This document shows, piece by piece, positions 3,141 through 30,230 of a DNA stretch of 30,553 bases. Position 1 is the stretch's first letter. Each line of letters starts with the position of its first letter. The notes below the pieces were generated by a model. It was not told the DNA's origin and did no database searches. It was given only the letters and a program-made list of their open reading frames with translations. Made by a program: the position numbers and the translations under genes. This stretch comes from a virus. The stretch covers positions 1-30,553 of IMG/VR virus record IMGVR_UViG_3300034139_000028, one strand, 5' to 3'.

Positions 3141-3146
3141 TATTTA
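3141..3146 (-). promoter_or_regulatory. TAAATA box, long-leader type
   Basis: This is an exact minus-strand TAAATA within CGGGTAAATA. It lies 35 nt upstream of the ATG at 3105, with an SD-like AGGCGAG in between. The leader contains a small GCGGA/TCCGC hairpin. This is the only box far from its start without the hairpin-to-start geometry, and it argues that the box is a promoter element at least here. Confidence 0.6.
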
Positions 3147-4664: not shown

Positions 4665-4670
4665 TATTTA
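4665..4670 (-). promoter_or_regulatory. TAAATA box, direct type (5 nt to GTG)
   Basis: GGGGTAAATA lies five nt before the GTG at 4659. The TAA of the box is also the stop codon of the large tail-tip gene (4668-4670), so termination and the next start signal are fused. Confidence 0.65.
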
Positions 4671-7600
4671 CCCCCACGTTCCCGAGTAGGTGCCGGTCGC
4701 GTTCGTGACCGTCTTGCCGTTCTTCCGCACCGCGTAGCCGCCCGCGACGCCGCTCGTCGAAGCCGCTCCCGCGCCGCCGCCGGTGCCACCCGCATTGCCG
4801 TAGGAGGTGCCCGCACCGCCCGCACCGCCGCCCGAGGTCGTGCCGCTCGCGCCATTGCCCGCGCTGCCGTAATCGCCGGTCGCACCACCGCCACCGCTGC
4901 CGTTCGGATAGCCGCCGCCGCCGCCGCCGCCCGCACCGTAGAGGGGTTCACCCGCGTTCCAGTTCGAGGACGCGGAGCCACCATTGCCACCACCACCACC
5001 GCCACGGATTGCACCCGCGTTCGTGATGGTGAGATTCTCCGAACAATAGATGGCGTCGCCACCGTTCGAGCCGGGGCCACCCGCGCCCGAGTAACCGCCG
5101 AAACCGCCGTAGCCGCCGCCGCCCGCCACGGTGACACCTGAGGCCACGTTGACCGTGAGGGCGATGGCATAGGTCGAGGACGGCCAAACGCCCGTGTCGA
5201 TGCCGCGACCGCCGCCCGAGAGCCCGGTCACATTGCCGTTGATGTTGAACGTGATCGTCGCATCAGATGCGCCGGTGTAGCCCGCCACGTCGGCAAGCGT
5301 GCGGAGGTTCACCGTGCCGGTTGTCGCCGAGACATTGAGCGTCGCGGTGAAGGCACTCGCCGGGGTCGCCGGTGCGCCGGTTGCACCCGGTGCGGCGAGA
5401 ACATCCCAGTAGGCGTTAGCCTGTGCGGTGCCGGTCGGGCTGTTACCTACGGTGGTCGTGATGGCAGTGTAGGAGCCGCCGCCAAACGTGACCCAATCGC
5501 CCTGATAGTAGGTCGTCGAGGTAGTGTAGGCTCCACGGTTCGTGAGGCCGGTTATGCGGCCCGGCACGGTCCAGTCCGAGACGAGCGCACCGTCGTAGCG
5601 CTTTAGCGCCCACGACTGCCAAAGCGCGTCGGTGCCACCCGGAACGGCGTCCGACCACCCGCTCGGGTCCGTGCCCGTCGGGGTCGCCGGTTGAGCCGAC
5701 GAGCGGATGAACTTCGTGTCGCGATAGTTGCCCTGAATCGCGAGGCTGATGAACTGAGTGTTCGAGGCATGGCCGGGCGGGAAGCTCGCGTTCGACGTGT
5801 GCGCGGTCGCGCAATGCCACGAGCCGTTTGCATACTGAACCACGTCACCGACCACATAGGCCGTCGAGGCGAGCCATGCGCCGCGAACGGCATTGCGCGT
5901 CGCTCCCATCTCGTTCCAGCCGAGACGGATGCCGGTGATGTCCTGACCAACGCCGCCAATGTGGTAGCCCTGATATATGACTTGAAAATAGGCACAGTTC
6001 GCGTCGAGCGTGAAGCTGCCCTTGCAGTCATGCCAAACGCCACCCGCGAGGGTGTTGTCGAAGTGCAGAATTGACCCGGTGCCAATCTCGGTCGAGCCGT
6101 CGTGCCTCCACTGACGGATAGTGATGTAGACGGTGCCGCCCGTGGTGCCGGGCCGGATGTAGTGTGCCCAGTAGAGCTTCGCGCCGGGGCGACCCTGCAT
6201 TTTGTCATTGTTCGTGCCGCCGTTCGGCACGAAGCGGGAGCTTCCCGAAGCCACAACGTCGTTGAAGCGCCAGTAGAACGGAGCGGGGTCGCCGGTGACC
6301 GCCGCGTAGCGGTTGAGGTTCCCGCCGTAGCCGGTCACGTAATAGCCATCGACGAGACCACCGGTCGTGTCGGTGAGGTTGTGATTCTTGACGAGATTGT
6401 CGCCCGTCGTGGCGTAGAGGTCCGGACGCGACGGCCCCGCGAGATTGCCGAAATTAAGATCGTAGTTCGGGCGGAACTGGATGTTTGTGACGGTCATGGT
6501 GCCGCCTTGCGTTCCACCCGTGAGGGCGAAGATGGGCGAGCCCGTCACCGACACCGCATAGTCGGAGCCGATTTGCGTGGCGTCTTTCCAGAAAGTGACC
6601 GCCTTGCCGTCGAAGACGAATTGGTAGGTCGCGGCGGTGTCGAGCGCGACATAGCCGACGGTCGCGTTTGCGAACGCTGAAATCTGAGCGCCCGTGAAAA
6701 CGAAGCCGTAGCTTTGCCCGTTGATTTGAACGGCGACGTAGCCGTTCGTGCCCGCAGACGGGAGCTTGAACGAAGCCGCGAACGGCCCCCGCACGACTTC
6801 CTTCACGGAGAAGGTCGAGCCGCTCGCATTGAACGTCACGCTGTTGCCGGTGACTGATGCCGTGCCGGTCGTCGTGAAGGTGACGTTCGCAGAAGCGTTC
6901 GCCGCCGCCGTGCTCTTTTCGAGACGCACGACGGTCACGGTGTCGCTCGCGCCCGAGGTAGCACCGGTCGCGGTCACGACGACTTGGCGGTTCGTGCCGA
7001 AATTGGCGGAGGAAAGCGTTCGGCTATCGCCGGTGCCGGTGAGCGTCACACTCGGCGAAGTGGTGAAGTTCACCGTCTCTGAGGTGTTTTGCTTCGTCGC
7101 TGTGAACGTGATGCTCGATGGGCTCGACACATCGAGAACCCCATCCGTGTAGGTGAAGGCTTCGTGGCTCGGCGCAAGCGCGATGACTGCACCGCCCGGC
7201 CCGGTAGCGCCGGTAGCACCGGCTGCTCCGTTCGACCCGGCTGCGCCCGCCTTCGACTTCGCAATCCCATATTCTTTATCGATGGTGACGCTGCCGTAGA
7301 CGGCACGGAGGGTCGCGGTGCCGGTGTCTGCCGACATCGCCGTGACCGAGTAGACACCGTTGGAATTGATCGAGATCGACACGCCCGCCGACGCGGCGAC
7401 GGAGTAGGTAACCGAACCGCTTGTCGTCTTGTCAGTCGTGCCGTCGAACACCCGGAAAGTGCCACCTGCGCCGGTGAAGCTCGACACCGTGCCTGCCGCG
7501 TCTGCCGCTACAGAGTGAGCCTCGTTTGAGAGGAGGCCGACGACCGCGTTCTGCCCGGCTGCACCCGTTGCACCCGTTGCGCCCGCTGCGCCGGTCGCGC

Positions 7601-10193
7601 CGACCGCGCCGTCCTGCACCTTCACGATTGAGATGCGGTCCCCGACGGTGGTGGTCGTGTTGAGACGCGCCTCGAAAATGAGGCCCGTTGTCGCGGCTGC
7701 CGCGAGGTTGGCTTGAAAGCCGGTGTGATTGATTGTGAGCGTGTCGTTGTCCGGCGCGGACATGTAGGATGCACCGCCCATGTTCGAGACGGTCGCGGCA
7801 GCGGTCATCCAGTCGCTGTAGACCGTTCCGTTTGCTCTCAAGACGCGCCACTGAGTCGTCTCCGCGCCCGCGTTCTGGCGAGCGGCTGAGATCGTCGTCG
7901 TCTGTGTCTGAATCGTCCCCGCACTGTTATAGCTGAACGTCTGATGTGACGCCGATACGGCGACCATCTTTGCGCTTGCACCGCTCGTGCCGCTCGTGCC
8001 CGCTGCACCGGCACGAGCCTTCGCAATCGAGTAAACGAGATCGATGGTCGTCCCCGCGTAAACGGCACGAAGCGTTGCCGTGCCCGAGTCTGCCGACATC
8101 GCCGTGACCGAGTAGACACCGTTGGAATTGATCGAGACGGTGACGCCGGTCGAGGACGGCACCGAGTAGGTGACGGAGCCGCCGGTCGTTACCTCGGTGG
8201 TGCCGTTGTAGACGCGGAAGGTGCCCCCTGCCCCGGCGAACGAAGAGACCGTTCCCGAGCTATCGGCGGCGACCGTGTGTGCCTCGTTCGTGAGGATGCC
8301 TTGCGTGGCGTTCGGCCCGCCCGTGATGTGCGAATAGGCAACGCTGAGGACGCCCGCCGTGACCGGCCCGAGGACGCGGCGTTCGGAAAGGATGTTGCGG
8401 TTCGTCCGGTAGGAGACCGCCACCTCGTATTGCGTGCCGGGCGTGACGGCGGTGATCTCGACCTTGGTCGTCGTGCGCGGCGTCTCCGACCACTGAATCC
8501 ACTCGGTCGAGCCGAACGGACGATACTCGGTGATGACGACGGTCGCGTAAGGGTCGTCACTCGTGCCGGTCACGACGAGAGCCGGGATGGTGACGCCCGC
8601 CGAGTTCGTGATCGAGGTCGCCGAGATTGCCCACGCGGTCGCGCCCGGCGCGTCCGGGCTGGTCGGGTCGTAGGTGTTGAGCGATGCCGACGGCGGAGCC
8701 GTCTGAGACTGCCCGAGCGCGAACGCGTGCTTCGCGTCCGTCTCGCTTTTGAGGGTGAGCGAAACCGTTTGGTCGGACGGGTTGAACTCGCGGTGCAAGA
8801 CGAGGCACTTCACCGAGGACGAGGCGACCTCGGGGATGTTCACGGTCGCGCTATCGCCAACGCGAAGGTTGAGGAGCTTGGGCTTCCCGACGAGGTTGAA
8901 AGTGAGAAACTCGCGGGTGTTGCAAAGCTCGTAGGCGGCAAGCTGATGGGCTTGCGCCGCACTCTGCACGAGCGGGAACTCGACCTCTTGCGACTTCTGT
9001 TCGCCGCCGTCCTCGGCGACGTAGGTCGCCGAAGTGACGATCTCCCCCGAGATGATGTTCCAGAATTGCGAGGGCTCGCGATACTGGGGCGTGACCGTGT
9101 TGATGCGGTCGCGCCACGAGGTCGTGTTGACGACCTCGATCTCGCCGACGACATCGGCCTCTTCGACCGTGAAGACGCTCGTGAGCGGTGTGTTGACGAC
9201 ACACGAGATTTGAGCGCCGCGAGTAATCGGAACGCCGCCGCCGGTTTGAAGGATGGTGCCGAGGACGGCGAACTTGTCGTCGTTCGTCGTGACGACGCCG
9301 CCGACCTTCCAATTGTTCGCGTCGGCTACGTTCGCGCCGGTGACGAAGGCCGCGACATCGACCTCATCCCAATTCGCACCGATGCCGTAGACGCGCTTGC
9401 CGTTCGCGTAGCGCCCGAGGGTCCAGTTGAGCGCCGCGAGGTAGGGGTTCTCGCTATACGCCCACGTGGTCGGGTCGTTGACGCGGTGGGAACCGCTGCC
9501 GCCGGGGTAAGTGCTATCGAGGCGGGGGTCGTAGAGCCGCACGCCACGGATGACCCAAAGCGGCTTCGGGACGCCCTGAGGAAAGGCATCCTGATCGTGT
9601 TCGAGCCGCATTACCGCATGCGCGAGGCCCGAGAGCTTGCCGGGGTTGCCGGGCAGCGTGTCGCCGATAGCGGTGCTCGGCGTGAGCGACGCGGGCGCGT
9701 CGCCGAGCTGATACCGCATGCGGAGCTTGTTCTTGTAGAGCTTCGACTTGCCGTTGTCGGGCGAGATGCCCGTTGCAGTGGCGGCAGCCGTCGTCGGGGT
9801 GCCGCTGAAATTGACGAGGTAGTCGGACGCGTAGAAGCTCTCGATGGCGTCGATGGGGCCACCCGCCGAGAGCACGGCGACCATCGCGAGATACTTGTTC
9901 TTCGCGCCGTAGGTGTCTCGGTAGGTGAGGTAGCCGCCGCTCGCGGTGCGACCGTAGGCGACGGGCACCGGCGCTTGCGTGTCGAGCTTAAGGTTTAGCT
10001 GATTTTGCGTGCTGCCCGGCTTTGACATCTTCTTGCTGAGCATGAAGAGACCGACACCGGTGAGACCAACGCCGACGACGGTGAGCACGGTCGCGAGCGA
10101 GATGCCCGCGATTGCAACGCCGACGCCGATAGCGCCCGCGATTGTTCCGGCTGCCATGAAGGCCGCACCGATGAGGGGAAGCGCCATAGGCAT
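4668..10193 (-). CDS. Tail tip (TipJ-like) host-specificity protein with Ig repeats and polyglycine adhesin end
   Basis: The protein has 1841 residues. Residues about 5-55 are two hydrophobic segments (FMAAGTIAGAIGVGVAIAG and neighbours), followed by LDTQAPVPVAYGRTASGGYL, typical of TipJ-like central tail tip proteins. Residues about 90-520 form the conserved tip body. A fibronectin-like domain follows (about 530-630). Next come two near-identical Ig-like modules (coding about 8320-7980 and 7550-7200), each ending in a collagen-like Gly-Ala-Thr stretch. Then come more beta-rich domains including chitin-binding-like WLASTAYVVGDVVQYANG and YTTSTTYYQGDWVTFGGG motifs. The last ~150 residues are strongly glycine-rich (GGGGYGGFGGYSGAGGPG and IRGGGGGGNGGS). 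The ATG at 10193 overlaps the peptidase stop (TAATG). It probably binds the host receptor and triggers ejection. Confidence 0.88.
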   Translation of the reverse strand: MPMALPLIGAAFMAAGTIAGAIGVGVAIAGISLATVLTVVGVGLTGVGLFMLSKKMSKPGSTQNQLNLKLDTQAPVPVAYGRTASGGYLTYRDTYGAKNKYLAMVAVLSAGGPIDAIESFYASDYLVNFSGTPTTAAATATGISPDNGKSKLYKNKLRMRYQLGDAPASLTPSTAIGDTLPGNPGKLSGLAHAVMRLEHDQDAFPQGVPKPLWVIRGVRLYDPRLDSTYPGGSGSHRVNDPTTWAYSENPYLAALNWTLGRYANGKRVYGIGANWDEVDVAAFVTGANVADANNWKVGGVVTTNDDKFAVLGTILQTGGGVPITRGAQISCVVNTPLTSVFTVEEADVVGEIEVVNTTSWRDRINTVTPQYREPSQFWNIISGEIVTSATYVAEDGGEQKSQEVEFPLVQSAAQAHQLAAYELCNTREFLTFNLVGKPKLLNLRVGDSATVNIPEVASSSVKCLVLHREFNPSDQTVSLTLKSETDAKHAFALGQSQTAPPSASLNTYDPTSPDAPGATAWAISATSITNSAGVTIPALVVTGTSDDPYATVVITEYRPFGSTEWIQWSETPRTTTKVEITAVTPGTQYEVAVSYRTNRNILSERRVLGPVTAGVLSVAYSHITGGPNATQGILTNEAHTVAADSSGTVSSFAGAGGTFRVYNGTTEVTTGGSVTYSVPSSTGVTVSINSNGVYSVTAMSADSGTATLRAVYAGTTIDLVYSIAKARAGAAGTSGTSGASAKMVAVSASHQTFSYNSAGTIQTQTTTISAARQNAGAETTQWRVLRANGTVYSDWMTAAATVSNMGGASYMSAPDNDTLTINHTGFQANLAAAATTGLIFEARLNTTTTVGDRISIVKVQDGAVGATGAAGATGATGAAGQNAVVGLLSNEAHSVAADAAGTVSSFTGAGGTFRVFDGTTDKTTSGSVTYSVAASAGVSISINSNGVYSVTAMSADTGTATLRAVYGSVTIDKEYGIAKSKAGAAGSNGAAGATGATGPGGAVIALAPSHEAFTYTDGVLDVSSPSSITFTATKQNTSETVNFTTSPSVTLTGTGDSRTLSSANFGTNRQVVVTATGATSGASDTVTVVRLEKSTAAANASANVTFTTTGTASVTGNSVTFNASGSTFSVKEVVRGPFAASFKLPSAGTNGYVAVQINGQSYGFVFTGAQISAFANATVGYVALDTAATYQFVFDGKAVTFWKDATQIGSDYAVSVTGSPIFALTGGTQGGTMTVTNIQFRPNYDLNFGNLAGPSRPDLYATTGDNLVKNHNLTDTTGGLVDGYYVTGYGGNLNRYAAVTGDPAPFYWRFNDVVASGSSRFVPNGGTNNDKMQGRPGAKLYWAHYIRPGTTGGTVYITIRQWRHDGSTEIGTGSILHFDNTLAGGVWHDCKGSFTLDANCAYFQVIYQGYHIGGVGQDITGIRLGWNEMGATRNAVRGAWLASTAYVVGDVVQYANGSWHCATAHTSNASFPPGHASNTQFISLAIQGNYRDTKFIRSSAQPATPTGTDPSGWSDAVPGGTDALWQSWALKRYDGALVSDWTVPGRITGLTNRGAYTTSTTYYQGDWVTFGGGSYTAITTTVGNSPTGTAQANAYWDVLAAPGATGAPATPASAFTATLNVSATTGTVNLRTLADVAGYTGASDATITFNINGNVTGLSGGGRGIDTGVWPSSTYAIALTVNVASGVTVAGGGGYGGFGGYSGAGGPGSNGGDAIYCSENLTITNAGAIRGGGGGGNGGSASSNWNAGEPLYGAGGGGGGGYPNGSGGGGATGDYGSAGNGASGTTSGGGAGGAGTSYGNAGGTGGGAGAASTSGVAGGYAVRKNGKTVTNATGTYSGTWG
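7210..8320 (-). repeat. Two diverged tandem Ig-like coding modules in the tail tip gene
   Basis: Modules at about 7990-8320 and 7210-7550 encode parallel sequences (NEAHTVAADSSGTVSSF and NEAHSVAADAAGTVSSF, then GAGGTFRV, SINSNGVYSVTAMSAD, GTATLRAVY). A 50-nt stretch is identical between 8088-8137 and 7326-7375, so the duplication is either recent or kept homogeneous by recombination. Boundaries are approximate. Confidence 0.85.
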
Positions 10194-10617: not shown

Positions 10618-10623
10618 TATTTA
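10618..10623 (-). promoter_or_regulatory. TAAATA box, direct type (5 nt to ATG)
   Basis: CCCGATAAATA lies five nt before the ATG of the peptidase gene. There is no separate Shine-Dalgarno sequence. Confidence 0.65.
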
Positions 10624-11898: not shown

Positions 11899-11904
11899 TA
11901 TTTA
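11899..11904 (-). promoter_or_regulatory. TAAATA box, direct type (4 nt to ATG)
   Basis: CACTCGGGTAAATA lies four nt before the ATG at 11894 and 18 nt after the tape measure stop. The flanking GCCACTCGG is shared with the tape measure box at 14912. Confidence 0.65.
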
Positions 11905-14911: not shown

Positions 14912-14917
14912 TATTTA
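14912..14917 (-). promoter_or_regulatory. TAAATA box, direct type (4 nt to GTG)
   Basis: GCCACTCGGGTAAATA is followed after four nt by the GTG of the tape measure gene. Only 11 nt separate it from the chaperone stop, which leaves no room for a terminator. Confidence 0.65.
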
Positions 14918-14928
14918 CCCGAGTGGCG

Positions 14929-15503
14929 TCATCCGAGCCGTTCTACTGCCGCGAAGAACTCATCCTCAGACGGTGGCGTTGCTTCACGCTCGTCTTCGGT
15001 GATATTCGCCTTCATCCATCCGTCTTGCAGGAAGCGGAACTCCCAAACGGACATCGCTTTTATTTGGTCGGGGGTGAATCCGGCAGCCCCTCCGAACTCG
15101 AAGAAACTTCCCCATCGAATAAGGTGAAGTTCGTCGTGCTCGTCGGGGCTTCGGCTTCCCCCGTTAGTGGCTCCTCTTCGACGCCGGTAAGCGCCGCGTA
15201 GAGGCACTGCGCCGCCGTGGCGGAGTAGTCGATGAGGTGACCCTCGACGATGTTGCGCTTCACGAGGTCGAAGGCTTCCTTCTGCGCCATGCCGCCGCCG
15301 ATGAGCGCGAGCCGGATCGTCTCGGTGATGTCCGAGACAAACCACTCGCCGGAAGCTAAGCGCTGGGCCGCGATGAACGGCCCAACGCCGAGCTTTTCTT
15401 GAAGAGCGATTAGCTCTCCGATGCGAAGGCAGAGATCGTAATACCCCTCCCCGACGAAGACATTTTCAATCTTCGCCGACCGCGAGCGTGGGGTGCTGAG
15501 CAT
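14929..15503 (-). CDS. Tail assembly chaperone, -1 frameshift fusion product
   Basis: The 15503 frame ends at 15060, but the -1 frame stays open to 14929. It encodes RWGSFFEFGG, GFTPDQIKAMSVWEFRFLQD and a charged tail ending VERLG, which look like the second half of GT-type tail chaperones. The -1 frame has no credible start or ribosome site before this segment. A -1 programmed frameshift, as in lambda G-GT, is the best explanation. A candidate slip site is ACG-GGG-GAA (15156-15164), where P-site tRNA-Gly can re-pair on GGG; the A-site fit is poor, so the exact site is uncertain. Confidence 0.6.
15060..15503 (-). CDS. Tail assembly chaperone (GTA gp10-like)
   Basis: The protein has 147 residues. 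The N-terminus FVGEGYYDLCLRIGELIALQ and the helix LGVGPFIAAQRL, then DITETIRLALIGGG, follow the GTA gp10 (Phage_TAC) family that chaperones the tape measure protein. The C-terminus is Ser/Pro-rich and overlaps the -1 frame extension. The ATG overlaps the major tail protein stop (TAATG at 15501-15505). Confidence 0.82.
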   Translation of the reverse strand: MLSTPRSRSAKIENVFVGEGYYDLCLRIGELIALQEKLGVGPFIAAQRLASGEWFVSDITETIRLALIGGGMAQKEAFDLVKRNIVEGHLIDYSATAAQCLYAALTGVEEEPLTGEAEAPTSTTNFTLFDGEVSSSSEGLPDSPPTK

Positions 15504-15934
15504 TAGACCGCCGCCGTGATCGTGACCGCGCCAGCCTGCTCAAGCGTGATCTGGCAAGTCGAGGACTTGAGGCGCTCGCCGGTCACCTGAAACGAGGTGA
15601 GGACGAAGGGGCCGGTGATGACCCAGTTGCCATCCGTGACCTTGATGTTCTTGATCTCGCCGCCCTGCGCCCAATCGAGCCATTCCTTCGTGTCGGGGGC
15701 GTGGAGCATGCCCGCGCCGTCGATTTTGCAGTCGGTGGAGCGAACGCGCCGCACCGTCTGCGCCGGGGCGGACTGGTCGGCGAGATCGACGAGTTCGTCG
15801 GACTCGACGTTGGTCGAGAAGCTGACACCGCGCGAAGTGTTGATGAGCGCCGGGTGAGTGAAGACCTCGGTAGCTGCGCCGTCGCCAATCTTTACGAGAA
15901 GCTGGTCGCCGAGGACCGGTGAAATGTATGCCAT
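15503..15934 (-). CDS. Major tail (tube) protein
   Basis: The protein has 143 residues, beta-rich, of the phage tail tube type: LLVKIGDGAATEVFTHPAL, GVSFSTNVESDELVDLADQS and SFQVTGERLKSSTCQITLEQ. It lies directly before the chaperone and tape measure genes, the standard order. The ATG at 15934 follows an unusual leader: a TAAATA box, then a 10-bp hairpin whose 3' arm contains CGGAG, then 7 nt. Nearly the same 37-nt leader precedes the major capsid gene. Confidence 0.88.
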   Translation of the reverse strand: MAYISPVLGDQLLVKIGDGAATEVFTHPALINTSRGVSFSTNVESDELVDLADQSAPAQTVRRVRSTDCKIDGAGMLHAPDTKEWLDWAQGGEIKNIKVTDGNWVITGPFVLTSFQVTGERLKSSTCQITLEQAGAVTITAAV

Positions 15935-15938
15935 GTGA

Positions 15939-15975
15939 AATGTCTCCGAGATTAGAGGGTCTCGAAGACTATTTA
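15939..15975 (-). promoter_or_regulatory. TAAATA box plus hairpin leader of the major tail gene
   Basis: The box is at 15970-15975. The hairpin follows immediately: GTCTTCGAGA (15960-15969), loop CCCTCTAA, TCTCGGAGAC (15942-15951). One pair is a U-G wobble. The Shine-Dalgarno GGAG lies inside the 3' arm. The block matches 19420-19456 at 36 of 37 positions, and the one difference (A for G at 15965) preserves pairing. Confidence 0.8.
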
Positions 15976-15999
15976 TCGAGGGTGGGCAGTTGCCGGGTC

Positions 16000-16383
16000 T
16001 TACGGCTTCGGCTGCACCATGTAGACGAACTCGACTACCGCATGCTCAGTCAAACCGCTGGAGTCGGTCATGTAGCGGGTGCTTTCGTAGGTCGCTTCGT
16101 GGCAGTCGAACCCGACGAGGGTGAGCGGCTTGTCGAGGGCATCTCGGATCGTGCCCACGAGGAGCTTGAGACCCGGCATGGTCTCGGCGAACCCGTGCAC
16201 GACGACGTGGCATTCGGAGAACTCCCCGGCCTCGTAGGCGGCGAAGATTTGGTCTTGCCCGATATGCACGTAGGGCAGCGGAGCCCCATCAGGCACACGA
16301 TGGTAGACGCGGCTGTTCGCGGCCCCGGCAGCGATGAGCGCGTCGTAGACGGCCTTCTGAATGGCGTAGGACGGGTCCGACAT
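16000..16383 (-). CDS. Tail completion / terminator protein (DUF3168-like)
   Basis: The protein has 127 residues. IQKAVYDALIAAGAANSRVYHRVPDGAPLPYVHIGQD is the typical start of DUF3168 tail completion proteins, followed by HVVVHGFAETMPG and a beta C-terminus. It caps the tail at the head-tail junction. The ATG overlaps the upstream gene's stop (TGATG at 16381-16385). It ends the 17369-to-16000 head completion group. Confidence 0.82.
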   Translation of the reverse strand: MSDPSYAIQKAVYDALIAAGAANSRVYHRVPDGAPLPYVHIGQDQIFAAYEAGEFSECHVVVHGFAETMPGLKLLVGTIRDALDKPLTLVGFDCHEATYESTRYMTDSSGLTEHAVVEFVYMVQPKP

Positions 16384-16793
16384 CAGTCGAGCCCCATCAG
16401 CTTACGGAGCGCCTTCTTCACCGCGTAGCGGACGCGGTTGCGGTAGCGCCGGTTCATGATGCGCACGACGGGGAAGAAGAAAGGCTGCGCCGGAACGTGC
16501 TTCCCGCCTTTCGTGAGGTGACCGAACTCCAGCGGGGCCGCGTAAGGTAGGTCGTCATTGCCGATGCTGATGCCGACCGCGAGCGACTGCCCGGCGACGA
16601 CTTCCTTCCGGATCGTGTCGCGGAGGTGCGGCGCTTTCTCGTGCATGGGCGTGTTCGTGCGGAGGCGTGCAATAAAGTCGTCGGCAGTCTTCGCTTGCGT
16701 CTTAGCAATGGCCTCACGGACTGCGGCAGGCATTGCGCCCACCTTGGCGTTATAGCGGTCGAGCCCCTCGGTGCGGGTGCGCCAATTAACCAT
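16383..16793 (-). CDS. HK97 gp10-family head-tail protein
   Basis: The protein has 136 residues. The helical N-terminus (LDRYNAKVGAMPAAVREAIAKT, DDFIARLRTNTP) and the PYAAPLEFGHLTKGGKHVPAQPFFFPV segment are typical of HK97 gp10-like proteins, where YA..LEFG and PAQPFF are conserved. The ATG at 16793 overlaps the upstream gene by eight nt and is preferred over longer in-frame starts that would lie deep in the neighbour. Confidence 0.85.
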   Translation of the reverse strand: MVNWRTRTEGLDRYNAKVGAMPAAVREAIAKTQAKTADDFIARLRTNTPMHEKAPHLRDTIRKEVVAGQSLAVGISIGNDDLPYAAPLEFGHLTKGGKHVPAQPFFFPVVRIMNRRYRNRVRYAVKKALRKLMGLD

Positions 16794-17148
16794 CGGACGG
16801 CCCTCCGCTCTCGCAAGCGAAGTGGATGAAGCGGCCCTTCTCATCGAGGCTGCCGCGCCAACGGATGTTGAAGGTCCGGCCCGAGCGGACATCGACGATG
16901 CGGTCGCTCGTCGTGATTGAGGCCGTGTCGGAGTCGCTGCGAACGACGACATCGAACGTAGCGATGCCTGAGAGCCGCTGAGAGCGCACCTCCTCGCCTC
17001 CGCGCTGCGGAGCGATGCGAGCGGGCACAGTGGCGACGACGGTGCCCCACGCGCCGGAAGAGCCGCCCATGCCGTCGCTCACGACGGTGCGACGCTCGAA
17101 GCGGACAAGCTCACGGAGCTGAGAGGGGCGCGGCGGCACGTAGGCCAT
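16786..17148 (-). CDS. Head closure / head-tail adaptor protein
   Basis: The protein has 120 residues of the small beta-barrel adaptor family (SPP1 gp16-like, Phage_H_T_join): QLRELVRFERRTVVSDGMGG, then WGTVVATVPARIAPQRG, then a GRTFNIRWRGSLDEKGRFIHFAC end. The conserved order RFERR ... ARI .. G is seen. The ATG overlaps the preceding stop (TGATG at 17146-17150). Confidence 0.85.
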   Translation of the reverse strand: MAYVPPRPSQLRELVRFERRTVVSDGMGGSSGAWGTVVATVPARIAPQRGGEEVRSQRLSGIATFDVVVRSDSDTASITTSDRIVDVRSGRTFNIRWRGSLDEKGRFIHFACESGGPSDG

Positions 17149-17369
17149 CAGTCTTCCTCATCGCTGAGATCGAGCGAGGAATCGTCGGGAATCTGAAAGA
17201 GGTCGTCTTCGGCGTAGTCGGCGAACTGGGCTCGACCGAGGAGCACGGCCTTCTCGGCACACTCGTCATCGACCTCGACGGTGAAACCGGCGCGGTAGGC
17301 GATGGTCATGTAAGGATCGTTCGATGGCGTGTAGTCGAAGTCGCTCGTGAAATGGACAATCTGCGGCAT
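17148..17369 (-). CDS. Small acidic head-region protein
   Basis: The protein has 73 residues. The pattern VHFTSDFDYTPSNDPYMTIAYRAG followed by CAEKAVLLGRAQ and an acidic tail (PDDSSLDLSDEED) is common as a short gene near head-tail connectors. Function is unknown. The ATG at 17369 lies four nt after a TAAATA box and begins a four-gene coupled group. Confidence 0.7.
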   Translation of the reverse strand: MPQIVHFTSDFDYTPSNDPYMTIAYRAGFTVEVDDECAEKAVLLGRAQFADYAEDDLFQIPDDSSLDLSDEED

Positions 17370-17373
17370 CGAC

Positions 17374-17379
17374 TATTTA
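17374..17379 (-). promoter_or_regulatory. TAAATA box, direct type (4 nt to ATG)
   Basis: CGTCGGGTAAATA lies four nt before the ATG at 17369. Only 14 nt separate it from the connector gene stop. Confidence 0.65.
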
Positions 17380-17393
17380 CCCGACGAGGGACA

Positions 17394-17978
17394 TCAGCCG
17401 ACCGCGAGGCTCCGATACCGGTCGAGGATGCACGAGACGCCGAACGGCACCGCCACTAGGCCCTGTGCGGTCGCTGCCTCGCGGTTCTCGTAGAAGTGAG
17501 CGACGAGCATCAACACGGCATGGCGGAGATCGATCGGCACGTCCTCGGCAAGGTCGCCATAGCCGCACGTGAAGGCGACTTTGACGGTGCCGGGCTGCAC
17601 GGAGGCCGGGGAGATCGGCGTCTCGCAAAAGACCCGAGCGGGGCTGGAGTCGGCGTCGAGCCGATAAGAGGCCGGGGCGAGCGTGTGCTCGTTACCCGCC
17701 GCGTCGCTGTAGGTGATCTCGTCGAGCGTCTGCACCGGGCCGAGCGGGAGAGTGAAGCTCGCCGGAAGGCTATCGAGCGACATGCGCCACTCTTGCGTGA
17801 TGAGCGCGATGCCGATGCCGTTGGGGCCGTCGATTGCGCCGGTCGCGGCGGCGATAAGGGTTTCGATGAGCTCGTCGTCGTCGGCGTGCGACACGTTGAG
17901 GTGAGCCTTCGCCTCGGCAAGCGCGACGATGGTCTCGGCGGGTGCGACGGAGCGCTTCAATCTATCCCAATAGGCCAT
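17394..17978 (-). CDS. Head-tail connector (phiE125 gp8 / gp6-like)
   Basis: The protein has 194 residues. LAEAKAHLNVSHADDDELIETLIAAATGAID at the N-terminus is the hallmark of Phage_connect_1/phiE125 gp8-like adaptors. ITQEWRMSLDSLP, LPLGPVQTLDEITYSDAAG and a C-terminal VAHFYENREA follow. It docks below the portal ring. The ATG at 17978 lies four nt after a TAAATA box. It stands alone as a transcript unit between a terminator-like hairpin and the next box. Confidence 0.87.
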   Translation of the reverse strand: MAYWDRLKRSVAPAETIVALAEAKAHLNVSHADDDELIETLIAAATGAIDGPNGIGIALITQEWRMSLDSLPASFTLPLGPVQTLDEITYSDAAGNEHTLAPASYRLDADSSPARVFCETPISPASVQPGTVKVAFTCGYGDLAEDVPIDLRHAVLMLVAHFYENREAATAQGLVAVPFGVSCILDRYRSLAVG

Positions 17979-17982
17979 CCCA

Positions 17983-17988
17983 TATTTA
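17983..17988 (-). promoter_or_regulatory. TAAATA box, direct type (4 nt to ATG)
   Basis: TTCCTAAATATGGGATG places the box four nt before the connector ATG. It directly follows the strong inverted repeat at 17993-18026. Confidence 0.65.
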
Positions 17989-17992
17989 GGAA

Positions 17993-18026
17993 GAACGGCC
18001 CCGAGACCGGGGTCTCGGAGCCGTTC
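17993..18026 (-). terminator. 16-bp stem, terminator-like, after the capsid unit
   Basis: On the minus strand GAACGGCTCCGAGACC pairs with GGTCTCGGGGCCGTTC across a CC loop, with a single U-G wobble. TTCC then follows. It sits 20 nt after the stop of the small gene behind the capsid gene and 4 nt before the connector box, so it probably ends or trims the capsid transcript. The T-run is short. Confidence 0.65.
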
Positions 18027-18045
18027 GAGAGGCAGTCTCGCGGAC

Positions 18046-18240
18046 CTACCTCGTTCGCTTGCGACGGGTTGTCGCCGTCTCGCGCTTCGGTGAAGTCTCG
18101 GCGGTCTCGATCTCCACTTCGTCACGAAGAGGGATTGCAAGACCGGCTGCACAAAGCCTGACGGCTTCCTCACCGGAGACTTCCTCGCCGGGGTTCCGCA
18201 TGGGTTCCCCGGCGAGCATTACGATCAACTTAGCCCGCAT
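18046..18240 (-). CDS. Small capsid-adjacent protein
   Basis: The protein has 64 residues. LIVMLAGEPMRNPGEEVSGEEAVRLCAAGLAIPL resembles the short proteins common between HK97-type capsid and connector genes (a Pro-Gly-Glu turn then an AAGLA helix). The C-terminus is basic (TATTRRKRTR). The start overlaps the capsid stop (TAATG at 18238-18242). Function is unknown. Confidence 0.7.
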   Translation of the reverse strand: MRAKLIVMLAGEPMRNPGEEVSGEEAVRLCAAGLAIPLRDEVEIETAETSPKRETATTRRKRTR

Positions 18241-19418
18241 TAGGAAGCGGCCTGAGTGAGCACCTTGAGGGCGCGGCTATCGACCACGACACCGCCGATG
18301 CGGGCGAAGCCGACGAAGCCGACCTGATCCGAGGTGGCGAAGCGCTCGTCGAGACGACGGAGAGCGAACCCACCGGCCCGACGGCCCTGATACTTGGCCA
18401 TATCGCCGAAGAGGACGGACTTTGCGGAAGCCGCAATCGTCGCCATGTCGTTGTTGACGGCATAAGCGTAGCCGAAGAGCGTGCCCGGCGCGCTGGCATC
18501 CATGCCCGGACGCCAGATGTAGTCGCCGTCACTGTTCTTCAGCTTACGAAGCACCTTGAGGGTGCCGTCGTTGAACATGAAGGTGCCGCGCGGGCGGTAA
18601 GCCATATCGACCGAGTGGATGAGGTCGATAAGCTCGTCGGCGGCAATTGCGGTCGCCGAAGCGGCAGTGATGCCAGCCGAAGCGCCGGTGACAATGCCCT
18701 GAGGCTGAGCCGAACCGGTGCCGACCGTGCAATGCTCGTTGATGGCGCGACCGAGGCGCTCGGCCATCGCGTCCGTCACGATGCGCGCAACGTCAACACC
18801 CGAGTCCATCAGAAGCTCGTTGCTGACCTTGAAGGTGCCGCTCGTATACTTGTAGACCGGGAGGCTCTTCTGACCGAACGTGAGGTCGGCATCAGCCGCA
18901 TCGGTGTTCTCGGCGAGGAGGGCACCCTTGTTCGAGGTGTCATCCAGCGTCGGGATGTTGATGAGGTTGCCTTCGGCAGTGATGAGCCACGAAGCGCCGC
19001 CACCCTCGTTCATCGGGCCGTAGCCCTTGAGCGCGAGGATGAGGTTGTTCGAGAGGGTCGTCGGGACGGTGAAGCCACCGGCGGCGTTCGTGCCGACCGC
19101 CTGAGCACGAAGCTCACGGTCGTCGATGTTGCCACGGAGGTAATCGACGAAAGCGTCGGACGCCTTCTCGCGGTTGCCTTCAACCGAGCGGGTGTCGCCC
19201 GGAATGAGGGTGTCGGCAGCCTCGAACGCCTTGGCGCGCTCTTCGGCCTCTTCCATGCGCTTCGCACGGGCTTCGAGGCGGTCGTGCTCAGCGATCATGG
19301 TGTCGAACTGAGAGGTGACTTCGGCTTCGTTCGAGCCGTCATCGGTAATGGTGTTGAGAAGGTCGCGGGCTTCGTGGGCTAGACGCTGCGCCTTCTGACG
19401 AATTTCGAGAATGTTCAT
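18240..19418 (-). CDS. Major capsid protein, HK97 family
   Basis: The protein has 392 residues. Residues 1-85 are a charged coiled-coil (QKAQRLAHEARDLLN and EHDRLEARAKRMEEAEERAK), the delta/scaffold domain removed by the protease. The HK97 fold follows: TNAAGGFTVPTTLSNNLI, SWLITAEGNLINIPTLDD, FKVSNELLMDSGVDVARIV, INEHCTVGTGSAQPQGIVTG, LIDLIHSVDMAYRPRGTFMF and FGDMAKYQGRRAGGFALRRL. The gene is preceded by the hairpin leader at 19420-19456. It follows the protease gene, the usual order. Confidence 0.95.
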   Translation of the reverse strand: MNILEIRQKAQRLAHEARDLLNTITDDGSNEAEVTSQFDTMIAEHDRLEARAKRMEEAEERAKAFEAADTLIPGDTRSVEGNREKASDAFVDYLRGNIDDRELRAQAVGTNAAGGFTVPTTLSNNLILALKGYGPMNEGGGASWLITAEGNLINIPTLDDTSNKGALLAENTDAADADLTFGQKSLPVYKYTSGTFKVSNELLMDSGVDVARIVTDAMAERLGRAINEHCTVGTGSAQPQGIVTGASAGITAASATAIAADELIDLIHSVDMAYRPRGTFMFNDGTLKVLRKLKNSDGDYIWRPGMDASAPGTLFGYAYAVNNDMATIAASAKSVLFGDMAKYQGRRAGGFALRRLDERFATSDQVGFVGFARIGGVVVDSRALKVLTQAAS

Positions 19419-19419
19419 G

Positions 19420-19456
19420 AATGTCTCCGAGATTAGAGGGTCTCGGAGACTATTTA
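19420..19456 (-). promoter_or_regulatory. TAAATA box plus perfect hairpin leader of the capsid gene
   Basis: The box is at 19451-19456. A perfect 10-bp stem follows at once: GTCTCCGAGA (19441-19450), loop CCCTCTAA, TCTCGGAGAC (19423-19432). Four nt later comes the ATG (19418). The SD-like GGAG is in the 3' arm. Without the hairpin the box-to-ATG distance would be the 4 nt seen at the direct boxes. Confidence 0.82.
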
Positions 19457-21437: not shown

Positions 21438-21443
21438 TATTTA
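21438..21443 (-). promoter_or_regulatory. TAAATA box, direct type (4 nt to ATG)
   Basis: CCCTAAAGTAAATAGGGGATG places the box four nt before the portal ATG. CCC and GGG flank the box as a short stem, as at the TerS box. Confidence 0.68.
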
Positions 21444-23489: not shown

Positions 23490-23495
23490 TATTTA
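23490..23495 (-). promoter_or_regulatory. TAAATA box, direct type (4 nt to ATG)
   Basis: CCCCAAAATAAATAGGGG precedes the TerS ATG by four nt. The box lies in the loop of a possible CCCC/GGGG stem and closely matches the portal start. Confidence 0.68.
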
Positions 23496-25093: not shown

Positions 25094-25795
25094 TCAGTCT
25101 TCTTGCGCTCGTTTAGCTTTTCGTAGCGCCCATCTTTTGAGCATCAGGGCTGCGAGGGCTAGTAAAGCTGACGCGACGAGCGAGCCACCCACTCCAATAC
25201 CGGCACCGATCCATCGTTCTCGGACAGCGTTGGCGCGATTGCGTTCCTCTTGCATGCGCAAGAGCGCATCCACTGTTCGCTGGTCCGCTTGCACCACCGG
25301 TTCCAAAGAGGCGCGACGTTGCCGCAAGTCTGCCAGTGCTTGCCGATCAACCTTCATCTGCTCGCGCTGTTGGACAACGAATTGCTCTAGCTGGTTCAAA
25401 CTACGTTGCGTAGCGTCGAGCGACGCAAGTTGCTGTTCAAATGAAGAGGCTTGCGATTCCTTAGGCTGGTCTTGTCCAACGGACATAATGAAGATGACCG
25501 TTGCACCTGCACCACCAACAAGTATTGACGCTAGCTCGGAATAAAACCGCCTGTATTGCTCATCTCCGATCAAGCGCCACCATCGCTGCACCAAGGATGC
25601 TGCTGCGTTACTGGCTATGTTGAGGGCTCCCGCTGTCTTCAGCAAGGAACATGTGTTGCAAATAATTCTTATGTTGCTCTCGTCGATTGTGCCGCCCTGC
25701 GATATCGGCACGATGTGCTCGCGGCGAGCCTGTTGGCGAGCAACTGTCCGGCCACATGCGGCGCATTGCACTTTCGCGTCTGTCGGCATGGCCAC
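25094..25795 (-). CDS. Membrane-anchored HNH-domain protein
   Basis: The protein has 233 residues. Residues 11-53 form an HNH/zinc domain: CAAC (11-14), REHIVPISQGG (His27), SNIRIICNTC (Asn41, C46, C49). A membrane span follows (about 87-106, ILVGGAGATVIFIMSV), then a coiled coil (about 115-190, rich in Gln/Arg/Glu), a second span (about 195-220) and a basic tail (KRWALRKAKRAQED). The HNH head would be cytoplasmic and the coiled coil periplasmic. The start is GTG at 25795 (GAGGG upstream) or ATG at 25789. This architecture is unusual; it suggests a membrane-linked nuclease or defence or exclusion factor, which is inference. Confidence 0.7.
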   Translation of the reverse strand: MAMPTDAKVQCAACGRTVARQQARREHIVPISQGGTIDESNIRIICNTCSLLKTAGALNIASNAAASLVQRWWRLIGDEQYRRFYSELASILVGGAGATVIFIMSVGQDQPKESQASSFEQQLASLDATQRSLNQLEQFVVQQREQMKVDRQALADLRQRRASLEPVVQADQRTVDALLRMQEERNRANAVRERWIGAGIGVGGSLVASALLALAALMLKRWALRKAKRAQED

Positions 25796-25860
25796 GGCTT
25801 ATCCCTCACCCTCTCAATTCTCCACCTTCTTAAGAAACGCGCTCCCTGACAAGGGTAAGG

Positions 25861-26205
25861 TTAGCTCAACTCCTCGGTGCGATTAGCCGGGTGGTGGGGG
25901 TCGAGCGGGTAGCCGTCGAGCCCCGCTGCACAGTCGTAGCCAACGGTCTCCCTCCTCTGCTTAGTAATGGCGTGGCAGGGCTCGCACAGGGACTGTAGCT
26001 CCCCTTCCCAGAAGAGATCGAGGTTGCCTCGGTGAGGCACGATATGGTCGGCGACGTTGGCAGACACAGGGCGTCCCTCGGCAAGGCAGAAGCGACACAG
26101 GGGCTCCGCCGTGAGCTGGGCAAGCCTCCTCTCCTTCCATGCCTTCCTGCCGTAAAGCTTCCGGTATTCCGCAGCCTCAGCGGAGCGGTAGTCTCGATGC
26201 CTCAT
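25861..26205 (-). CDS. Phage HNH endonuclease
   Basis: The protein has 114 residues. PLCRFC (about 37-40) and LCEPCH (about 74-78) bind structural zinc, and VADHIVPHRGNLDLFW (about 51-66) supplies the HNH core. It fits the small HNH nucleases located next to terminase genes and needed for packaging in HK97-type phages. Here an accessory cassette separates it from TerS by 2.4 kb. The ATG at 26205 lies six nt after a TAAGTA variant of the box (26212-26217). Confidence 0.88.
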   Translation of the reverse strand: MRHRDYRSAEAAEYRKLYGRKAWKERRLAQLTAEPLCRFCLAEGRPVSANVADHIVPHRGNLDLFWEGELQSLCEPCHAITKQRRETVGYDCAAGLDGYPLDPHHPANRTEELS

Positions 26206-28140: not shown

Positions 28141-28146
28141 TATTTA
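28141..28146 (-). promoter_or_regulatory. TAAATA box, direct type, full TATAAATA
   Basis: The minus strand reads CGGTATAAATACGGCAATG; the box is five nt before the ATG at 28135. The eight-base TATAAATA is identical to the T4 late promoter core, an interesting match that could be coincidence. Confidence 0.66.
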
Positions 28147-29386: not shown

Positions 29387-29413
29387 GGTCTCCGGTGAGT
29401 GAGACCATATTTA
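29387..29413 (-). promoter_or_regulatory. TAAATA box plus hairpin leader of the HTH gene
   Basis: The box is at 29408-29413 (GATAAATA). One nt later comes a 6-bp stem GGTCTC (29401-29406), 8-nt loop, GAGACC (29387-29392), then TAAC and the GTG. GGAG lies at the loop/3' arm junction. Confidence 0.75.
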
Positions 29414-29495: not shown

Positions 29496-29521
29496 TAAAT
29501 AACTCCGTAACATTTACGGAG
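29496..29521 (+). promoter_or_regulatory. TAAATA box plus hairpin leader of the plus-strand operon
   Basis: GATAAATA (29494-29501; box 29496-29501) is followed one nt later by CTCCGTAA (29503-29510), loop CAT and TTACGGAG (29514-29521), a perfect 8-bp stem. GGAGG of the ribosome site spans its 3' arm and end. The ATG is at 29527. This is the only copy on the plus strand, and it precedes a plus-strand gene. Confidence 0.8.
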
Positions 29522-29526
29522 GCATC

Positions 29527-29625
29527 ATGACTACCTACCACACCCGCACGATGCGCGACGATATTCGCGCGCATATCTGTTTTTCGCCCACTCGACGGCT
29601 TGAGGTGCTCGCATGGGCAGCATGA
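29527..29625 (+). CDS. Small leader ORF, 32 residues
   Basis: The ATG at 29527 follows GGAGG by five nt and encodes a 32-residue peptide starting MTTYHTRTMRDDIRAHICFS and ending VLAWAA. It overlaps the start of the next gene by 13 nt, so its translation probably feeds that gene. It is the first gene of the plus-strand group and could be a small regulatory peptide or only a coupling leader. Confidence 0.6.
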   Translation: MTTYHTRTMRDDIRAHICFSPTRRLEVLAWAA

Positions 29626-30230
29626 TCGATCTCACGGGGCGGGTGCACGGCAAGCTGATCGTTCTCGCACACATCGGCTTTCACGGACGCAAAGCAAAGT
29701 GGGAGGCCGAGTGCACCTGCGGCGGGCGCACGTTCATCCTCACCGAGCACATTAAGCGAGGAATGCGCCTCTCGTGCGGCGCATGTAAACCTCGTCCAAA
29801 GAGGACGCGGCAATCACGCCCGAGGTCCGACCGAGCCCGCCTTTCATCAATCCGTTCGGGCATGCTCAGGCGCTGCGCCAACACTGAGACTCGCAGCTAC
29901 TCCCGATATGGTGGTCGTGGCATCAGCATCTGCGCCGAGTGGCGAGGCGACCCCGAGGCGTTTGTCTCGTGGTCTCTGGCGAACGGCTTTCGCGCCGGGT
30001 TGAGCCTCGACCGCATCGACAACGATGGGAACTACGAACCCCAGAACTGTCGGTGGGTTACCATCTCTGAGCAACAACGAAACCGGGGCAACACCCGCCT
30101 CGACGCTGCAAAGGCCGAGCACGTGCGATGGTTGCTACACTATGGCGAAGCGGCACCCGATATCGCAGCCGTCCTCGGCGTGCCCGACCATGCCGTCTAT
30201 GCAATCCGCAACTATGGGGCGTGGCGATGA
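29613..30230 (+). CDS. HNH-type (YGGRGI family) nuclease or DNA-binding protein
   Basis: The protein has 205 residues. An N-terminal zinc-ribbon part (CTCGG about 34-38, CGAC about 55-58) is followed by the phage nuclease core: SGMLRRCANTETRSYSRYGG, RGISICAEW, LSLDRIDNDGNYEPQNCRWV and EQQRNR. This core is common in phage HNH/homing-like endonucleases. A C-terminal helix-turn-helix (LLHYGEAAPDIAAVLGVPDH) may confer site binding. It overlaps the next gene by ATGA. It may be a free-standing homing nuclease or recombination helper. Confidence 0.78.
   Translation: MGSMIDLTGRVHGKLIVLAHIGFHGRKAKWEAECTCGGRTFILTEHIKRGMRLSCGACKPRPKRTRQSRPRSDRARLSSIRSGMLRRCANTETRSYSRYGGRGISICAEWRGDPEAFVSWSLANGFRAGLSLDRIDNDGNYEPQNCRWVTISEQQRNRGNTRLDAAKAEHVRWLLHYGEAAPDIAAVLGVPDHAVYAIRNYGAWR

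Follow-up and report, generated by a model that had tools for sequence, protein, structure and literature searches.

We analyzed the hexamer TAAATA and the RNA structures around it in a 30,553-base virus record (IMG/VR record IMGVR_UViG_3300034139_000028; this whole stretch, which may be a fragment, is referred to as the window) and in related phages. Our analysis suggests that TAAATA is probably a single-element late promoter of the gp55 kind, gp55 being the sigma factor for late transcription in phage T4, and that a translational lock is built into every copy. For most late genes the first nucleotide of the transcript would be the A of the start codon or one adjacent to it, yielding a leaderless mRNA (direct-start genes below). 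At the major capsid protein (MCP) and major tail protein (MTP) genes it would begin about 6 nucleotides (nt) after the box, within the 5' arm of a hairpin, leaving a leader of about 27-30 nt with a usable Shine-Dalgarno (SD) sequence, GGAG. An RNA reading through from an upstream promoter would retain the 5' arm and fold, hiding the start codon at most genes and the SD at MCP and MTP; since the pairing arm lies 5' of the predicted start point, read-through RNA would be locked and RNA from the gene's own promoter more open. For each gene, its own late transcript would be the main template for translation; the gene would be off in the prophage and in early phases, and late-phase expression would be set by promoter strength and not by operon position.

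The working set comprised 15 distinct phages, the window included; L002, L003, L005, L006, L031, L035 and L042 were left out of the counts as same-contig repeats or near-identical contigs. MCP as a protein query in viral contigs found no relative, and the relatives were obtained via MTP searches, including an alignment-based one, and a genome search. The MTP search yielded 20 loci: six at 51-71% identity (L001-L006), with the box and the leader present at MTP, and 14 distant ones (29-36% identity), at which the TAAATA leader is absent from MTP. One relative is a prophage in Sphingomonas sp. IC081. Many of these records may be fragments.

The TAAATA box and a candidate late sigma factor

In the 15 phages TAAATA lies 4-5 nt 5' of the start codon at most late genes. 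It is the commonest hexamer at this distance before ATG-initiated open reading frames (ORFs) of at least 50 amino acids (aa), with 90 occurrences among 1731, the next non-overlapping hexamer having 15; 111/154 copies are found at most 60 nt 5' of an ORF start, compared to 11/154 for the reverse complement. At 99 direct-start sites no -35 element was seen: in the region 12-45 nt upstream neither a column nor a 5-mer was strong, and only weak G/C and stop-codon biases were noted. The base before TAAATA (position -1) at these sites is A in 36 cases, C in 54 and G in nine, so that the A preceding the core in the T4 (TATAAATA) and cyanophage (NATAAATA) promoters is only partly kept, the core itself being invariant by the design of the search.

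The same box is placed similarly in T4-like phages. Within 240 kb scanned of the T4-like record G030, 52/95 copies of TAAATA lie 5' of ORFs (reverse complement, 14/95), and 11 have the 4-5-nt spacing (reverse complement, none). In 79 other gp55-bearing contigs the respective numbers are 254/788 and 129/788, and the distances from box to ATG fall at 4-6 nt in 45 cases, at 7-11 nt in five and at 12-16 nt in 31. These two preferred distances can be explained by RNA starting 5-6 nt after the box, which would either place the AUG at the 5' end or leave room for an SD. TAAATA is probably a phage late promoter resembling that of T4. A DNA-binding operator was ruled out, as the arm sequences flanking the box vary while their complementarity stays.

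A candidate sigma factor was found in the relative G012, a 37-kb siphophage-type prophage record, where a gp55-type gene (L073:5243-6037) is situated upstream of the terminase genes; no TAAATA occurs directly 5' of it. Its 264-aa product matches the PHROGs families phrog_12791 ("sigma factor for late transcription", E 1.2e-63) and phrog_234 (E 9.7e-21), as well as T4 gp55 (PDB 7d7c, chain F; E 0.0011). With this protein as the query, TBLASTN (E 1e-3) matched 545 phage records, chiefly those of cyanophages and large T4-like phages, and the homolog in the 452-kb record G030 has 47% identity to it over the main stretch. From sequence comparison it is likely, not proven, that the boxes belong to the gp55 promoter class, the sigma factor being absent from most records searched.

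This absence weighs against our reading. When 26 records were searched, only G012 and the T4-like G030 yielded a gp55 homolog, with no match in the window record, and a profile built from 80 gp55 proteins, run on the siphophage pieces including the window, matched G012 alone. Searches of the siphophage records for sigma regions 2 and 4 gave no match, and family scans of genes of unknown function revealed no regulator besides the G012 sigma factor. The search for the T4 clamp (PF02916; 0/13 records) is uninformative, since it missed T4-like G030 too.

These negative results are what one would expect if TAAATA were a promoter read by a sigma factor of the host, or by a phage sigma factor not homologous to gp55, the gp55 gene of G012 being incidental. 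We consider this unlikely, because in 340 kb of a Sphingomonas host genome TAAATA occurs only three times and never at the 4-5-nt spacing, because the box is identical to the core of the consensus for gp55-type promoters and gp55 is encoded by one of the relatives, and because many records may be fragments and the IC081 prophage (L053-L055) is broken by insertion sequences, with a split terminase large subunit gene and several transposase-like genes inside.

Complementary arms at start codons and Shine-Dalgarno sequences

At direct-start genes, the gene's first 12 nt pair better with the 30-nt segment that lies 5' of their own box than with swapped upstream regions (z -9.1 for 99 sites, 0/5000 permutations), also when swaps are made among orthologous genes only (z -6.3 for 89 sites, 0/5000 permutations). 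The spacer and AUG taken against 12 nt upstream gave z -7.9 with any swap and -6.3 with orthologue swaps. The effect is strongest in the class of large proteins (mean 930 aa, 15 sites; -12.9 matched vs -9.3 swapped), and clear cases of a buried AUG or GTG include L038 9661, L032 11087, L044 11022 and the window genes starting at 17978, 14907 and 11894. In T4-like contigs the same duplex test showed no lock at 55 direct-start sites (z 0.1), and the same folding test showed none at 88 SD leaders (SD unpaired 0.43 vs 0.42 shuffled). The predicted lock thus characterizes these siphophages and does not simply come with the box or the method.

The original prediction, made from the window alone, described a 37-nt leader shared by the MCP and MTP genes and differing at one base, made up of TAAATA and a hairpin (10-bp stem, 8-nt loop) whose 3' arm contains GGAG. 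All of this was confirmed on the minus strand at 19420-19456 (MCP) and 15939-15975 (MTP), where these elements follow one another in this order and precede ATG 19418 and ATG 15934, respectively. The sole mismatch (19446 G, 15965 A on the plus strand) is a C-to-U change in the MTP 5' arm opposite G, turning a C-G pair into a U·G wobble and retaining the pairing. PHROGs matches identify the following genes as major head protein (E 2.8e-75) and major tail protein (E 7.7e-18). Within the window the stem pattern is confined to these two leaders (search with up to three mismatches), and it was not found in 100 dinucleotide shuffles. The stems were also considered as intrinsic terminators, which was ruled out as neither is followed by a T run, and the window has no match to an Rfam family at the gathering score.

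The comparison of leaders in related phages supports the proposed conservation by selection: TAAATA and the SD are kept at 26 of 27 MCP/MTP leaders examined, and in nearly all of them the SD is buried even though the stem sequences differ. The position of the anti-SD arm varies too, being directly after the box in the window and upstream of the box in other phages, and GGAG is nearly always paired. The suggestion that the leader may gate translation is supported as well, as far as predicted folding can tell. For 26 leaders the GGAG is predicted to be unpaired with a probability of 0.04 when the RNA is read-through (23/26 leaders at 0.03 or below), 0.31 when it begins at the predicted start and 0.22 when the arms are shuffled; release of GGAG reaches a plateau in RNA starting at least 4-5 nt after the box.

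The proposal that the leader had been copied holds in part. MCP and MTP leaders of one phage resemble each other more (0.72) than those of different phages do (0.58), and in six of 11 cases the best match of the MCP leader is the MTP leader of its own phage, which suggests repeated copying or conversion of the leader within genomes; the other five pairs differ, yet both of their members are locked. Across the 15 phages, MCP and MTP regularly have an SD leader and not a leaderless start. It is plausible that SD leaders would let these two most abundant proteins initiate more than leaderless AUGs could, and that strong SD sites would need stronger locks.

Hairpin leaders were also seen outside this set: a DNA scan of the GC-rich phages G023 (L279-L280) and G026 (L283-L284) found TAAATA followed by SD-burying hairpins, including a 10-bp stem at G023 36428, and so the arrangement is not confined to the phage family of the window.

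Could the box act as RNA? A polycistronic transcript might be cut at the A/U-rich UAAAUA, which is unpaired at many sites, and the hairpin at the new 5' end might stabilize the abundant MCP and MTP mRNAs, whose leaders have long stems in nearly all phages. This is close to the original suggestion of mRNA protection, and we regard it as quite improbable. Most boxes lie 4-5 nt before the AUG, where a transcript cut at the box would carry no hairpin at its 5' end; in several MCP/MTP leaders part of UAAAUA is itself paired; and the box has promoter-like spacing before genes in gp55-bearing T4-like phages. Given TAAATA as a promoter, mRNA protection is unsupported, since the whole leader is more stable than its shuffles (mean z -3.25, 18/26 below -2) whereas the predicted own RNA is not unusually structured (mean z -0.54, 1/26 below -2). 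It is very unlikely that UAAAUA in the hairpin loop is an operator for a phage RNA-binding protein repressing or activating late-gene translation: the box is in the loop at many sites and the arms vary yet stay complementary, but loop size and closing pair vary as well, the box is 5' of the stem in most MCP/MTP leaders, T4-like phages have the same box without the stem signal, and no candidate protein was found.

A promoter combined with a lock thus remains the preferred reading, with several observations on the lock counting against it. The portal class (10 sites; -5.0 matched, -5.0 swapped) and the 150-aa class (eight sites; -7.5 vs -7.6) have no excess of matched arms. The predicted probability of the AUG being unpaired is 0.35 in read-through RNA, 0.42 with swapped upstream regions and 0.75 in leaderless RNA, and the AUG of the read-through RNA falls below 30% unpaired at 36/99 direct-start sites as compared to 160/495 with swapped upstream regions. 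Hence the lock is not uniform, and the folding measure separates weakly (0.35 vs 0.42) though the duplex test is strong. Among the leaders, the L039 MCP has kept the hairpin but has no TAAATA, and the SD of L041 MCP, L041 MTP and L044 MCP is unpaired at 0.25-0.38 in predicted read-through RNA. As shuffled arms already give 0.22, the further release in the predicted own transcripts (0.31) is modest.

Further features of the window

The window contains 14 copies of TAAATA, nine of which are 4-5 nt 5' of an ATG or GTG (ORFs of at least 40 aa; Table 1). The box had been described as a component of the leader; it is indeed present in both leaders, but it is genome-wide and found at most late genes. 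Three more long-leader sites (the last three rows of Table 1) show that hairpin leaders are not exclusive to MCP and MTP. The head-tail adaptor ORF as read (17394-18173) is probably too long, ATG 17978, to which the box points, being the true start.

Table 1. Coordinates of the TAAATA boxes, leaders and associated genes in the window
Feature	Coordinates	Strand	Remarks
MCP TAAATA box	19451..19456	-	proposed gp55-type late promoter
MCP stem, 10 bp	19423..19450	-	5' arm 19450-19441, loop 19440-19433, 3' arm 19432-19423, GGAG 19428-19425
MCP own transcript	from about 19445	-	predicted start, within 5' arm
Major capsid gene	18240..19418	-	phrog_10
MTP TAAATA box	15970..15975	-	
MTP stem, 10 bp	15942..15969	-	GGAG in 3' arm, one U·G wobble
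Major tail gene	15503..15934	-	phrog_13196
TAAATA	23490..23495	-	4 nt 5' of ATG 23485, terminase small subunit
TAAATA	21438..21443	-	4 nt 5' of ATG 21433, portal
TAAATA	17983..17988	-	4 nt 5' of ATG 17978, head-tail adaptor; ATG buried by 9-bp stem over TAAATA
TAAATA	17374..17379	-	4 nt 5' of ATG 17369, 73-aa gene
TAAATA	14912..14917	-	4 nt 5' of GTG 14907, 994-aa tape-measure-sized gene; GTG in stem
TAAATA	11899..11904	-	4 nt 5' of ATG 11894; TAAATA in loop, ATG in stem
TAAATA	10618..10623	-	5 nt 5' of ATG 10612
TAAATA	4665..4670	-	5 nt 5' of GTG 4659
TAAATA	28141..28146	-	5 nt 5' of ATG 28135, 102-aa ORF
TAAATA, 6-bp hairpin	29408..29413	-	GGAG in 3' arm; 5' of GTG 29382, 54-aa ORF
TAAATA, 35-nt structured leader	3141..3146	-	5' of ATG 3105, 135-aa ORF
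TAAATA, 8-bp hairpin	29496..29501	+ (opposite strand)	GGAG in 3' arm; following ATG opens short ORF only

Elsewhere in the window, a 300-nt direct repeat (7211-7510 and 7973-8272, 71% identity) lies inside the gene of a 1878-aa tail protein, and three HNH endonuclease genes are located at 25094-26205 and 29613-30230; in relatives, HNH genes recur near terminase. In the AT-rich contigs L088, L089, L104 and L140, some of them T4-like, a TAAATATCGGCATG start is found before an ORF, and CCGATAAATATCGGCATG occurs in L089, L104 and L140.

Comparison with known systems

A short repeated element just before the start codons of many genes is also known from cluster K mycobacteriophages (start-associated sequences, SAS/ESAS). 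Its sequence is unrelated, and TAAATA differs from it in being an A/T promoter-like motif with covarying flanks.

If our reading is correct, a simple grammar of box, spacing and complementary arm would set the expression of each late gene independently of operon transcription, making compact, self-insulating expression units, and T4 late transcription would be linked to small temperate phages. It would also allow rule-based annotation of late promoters and start codons in these genomes and make testable why most virion genes use leaderless mRNAs but the two most abundant proteins SD leaders. None of the titles and abstracts that we searched reported gp55 in siphophages or gp55-type promoters that are leaderless, and they contained nothing on TAAATA phage late promoters or leaderless mRNAs of Sphingomonas phages.

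Like the late promoters of T4 (TATAAATA, sigma gp55) and of T4-like cyanophages, for which the consensus is NATAAATA (PMC2984593), the boxes described here are single A/T elements with the core TAAATA and no -35 element, situated before virion genes, and gp55 homologs are encoded by one relative (G012) and by T4-like contigs that share the box. Unlike those promoters, they occur in small siphophage-type genomes, mostly 4-5 nt before the AUG with predicted leaderless mRNAs, the sigma factor was not found in most relatives, and no coupling to a clamp or gp33 is established for these siphophages.

The lock has counterparts in T4 as well. According to PMC3014915, the SD or the AUG of the genes e, soc, 49 and I-TevI is buried when the RNA is a long early one, and at gene e a late promoter within the 5' strand of the structure yields a late RNA free of it. 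Likewise, folding predicts that in the phages studied here read-through RNA hides the SD or the AUG, with the promoter in the 5' strand and the gene's own RNA lacking that arm. The T4 locks concern few genes, whereas here most late genes are involved, in both SD-burying and AUG-burying forms. In the preferred reading, this T4 trick would be used genome-wide, at most late genes and mostly with predicted leaderless mRNAs. A wider scenario, to which we give even weight for and against, is that small temperate tailed phages of Sphingomonadales have acquired T4-type late transcription and rebuilt it, with nearly every virion gene receiving its own single-box leaderless promoter and an anti-start or anti-SD arm, so that read-through would be silenced, stoichiometry set gene by gene and the prophage kept silent.

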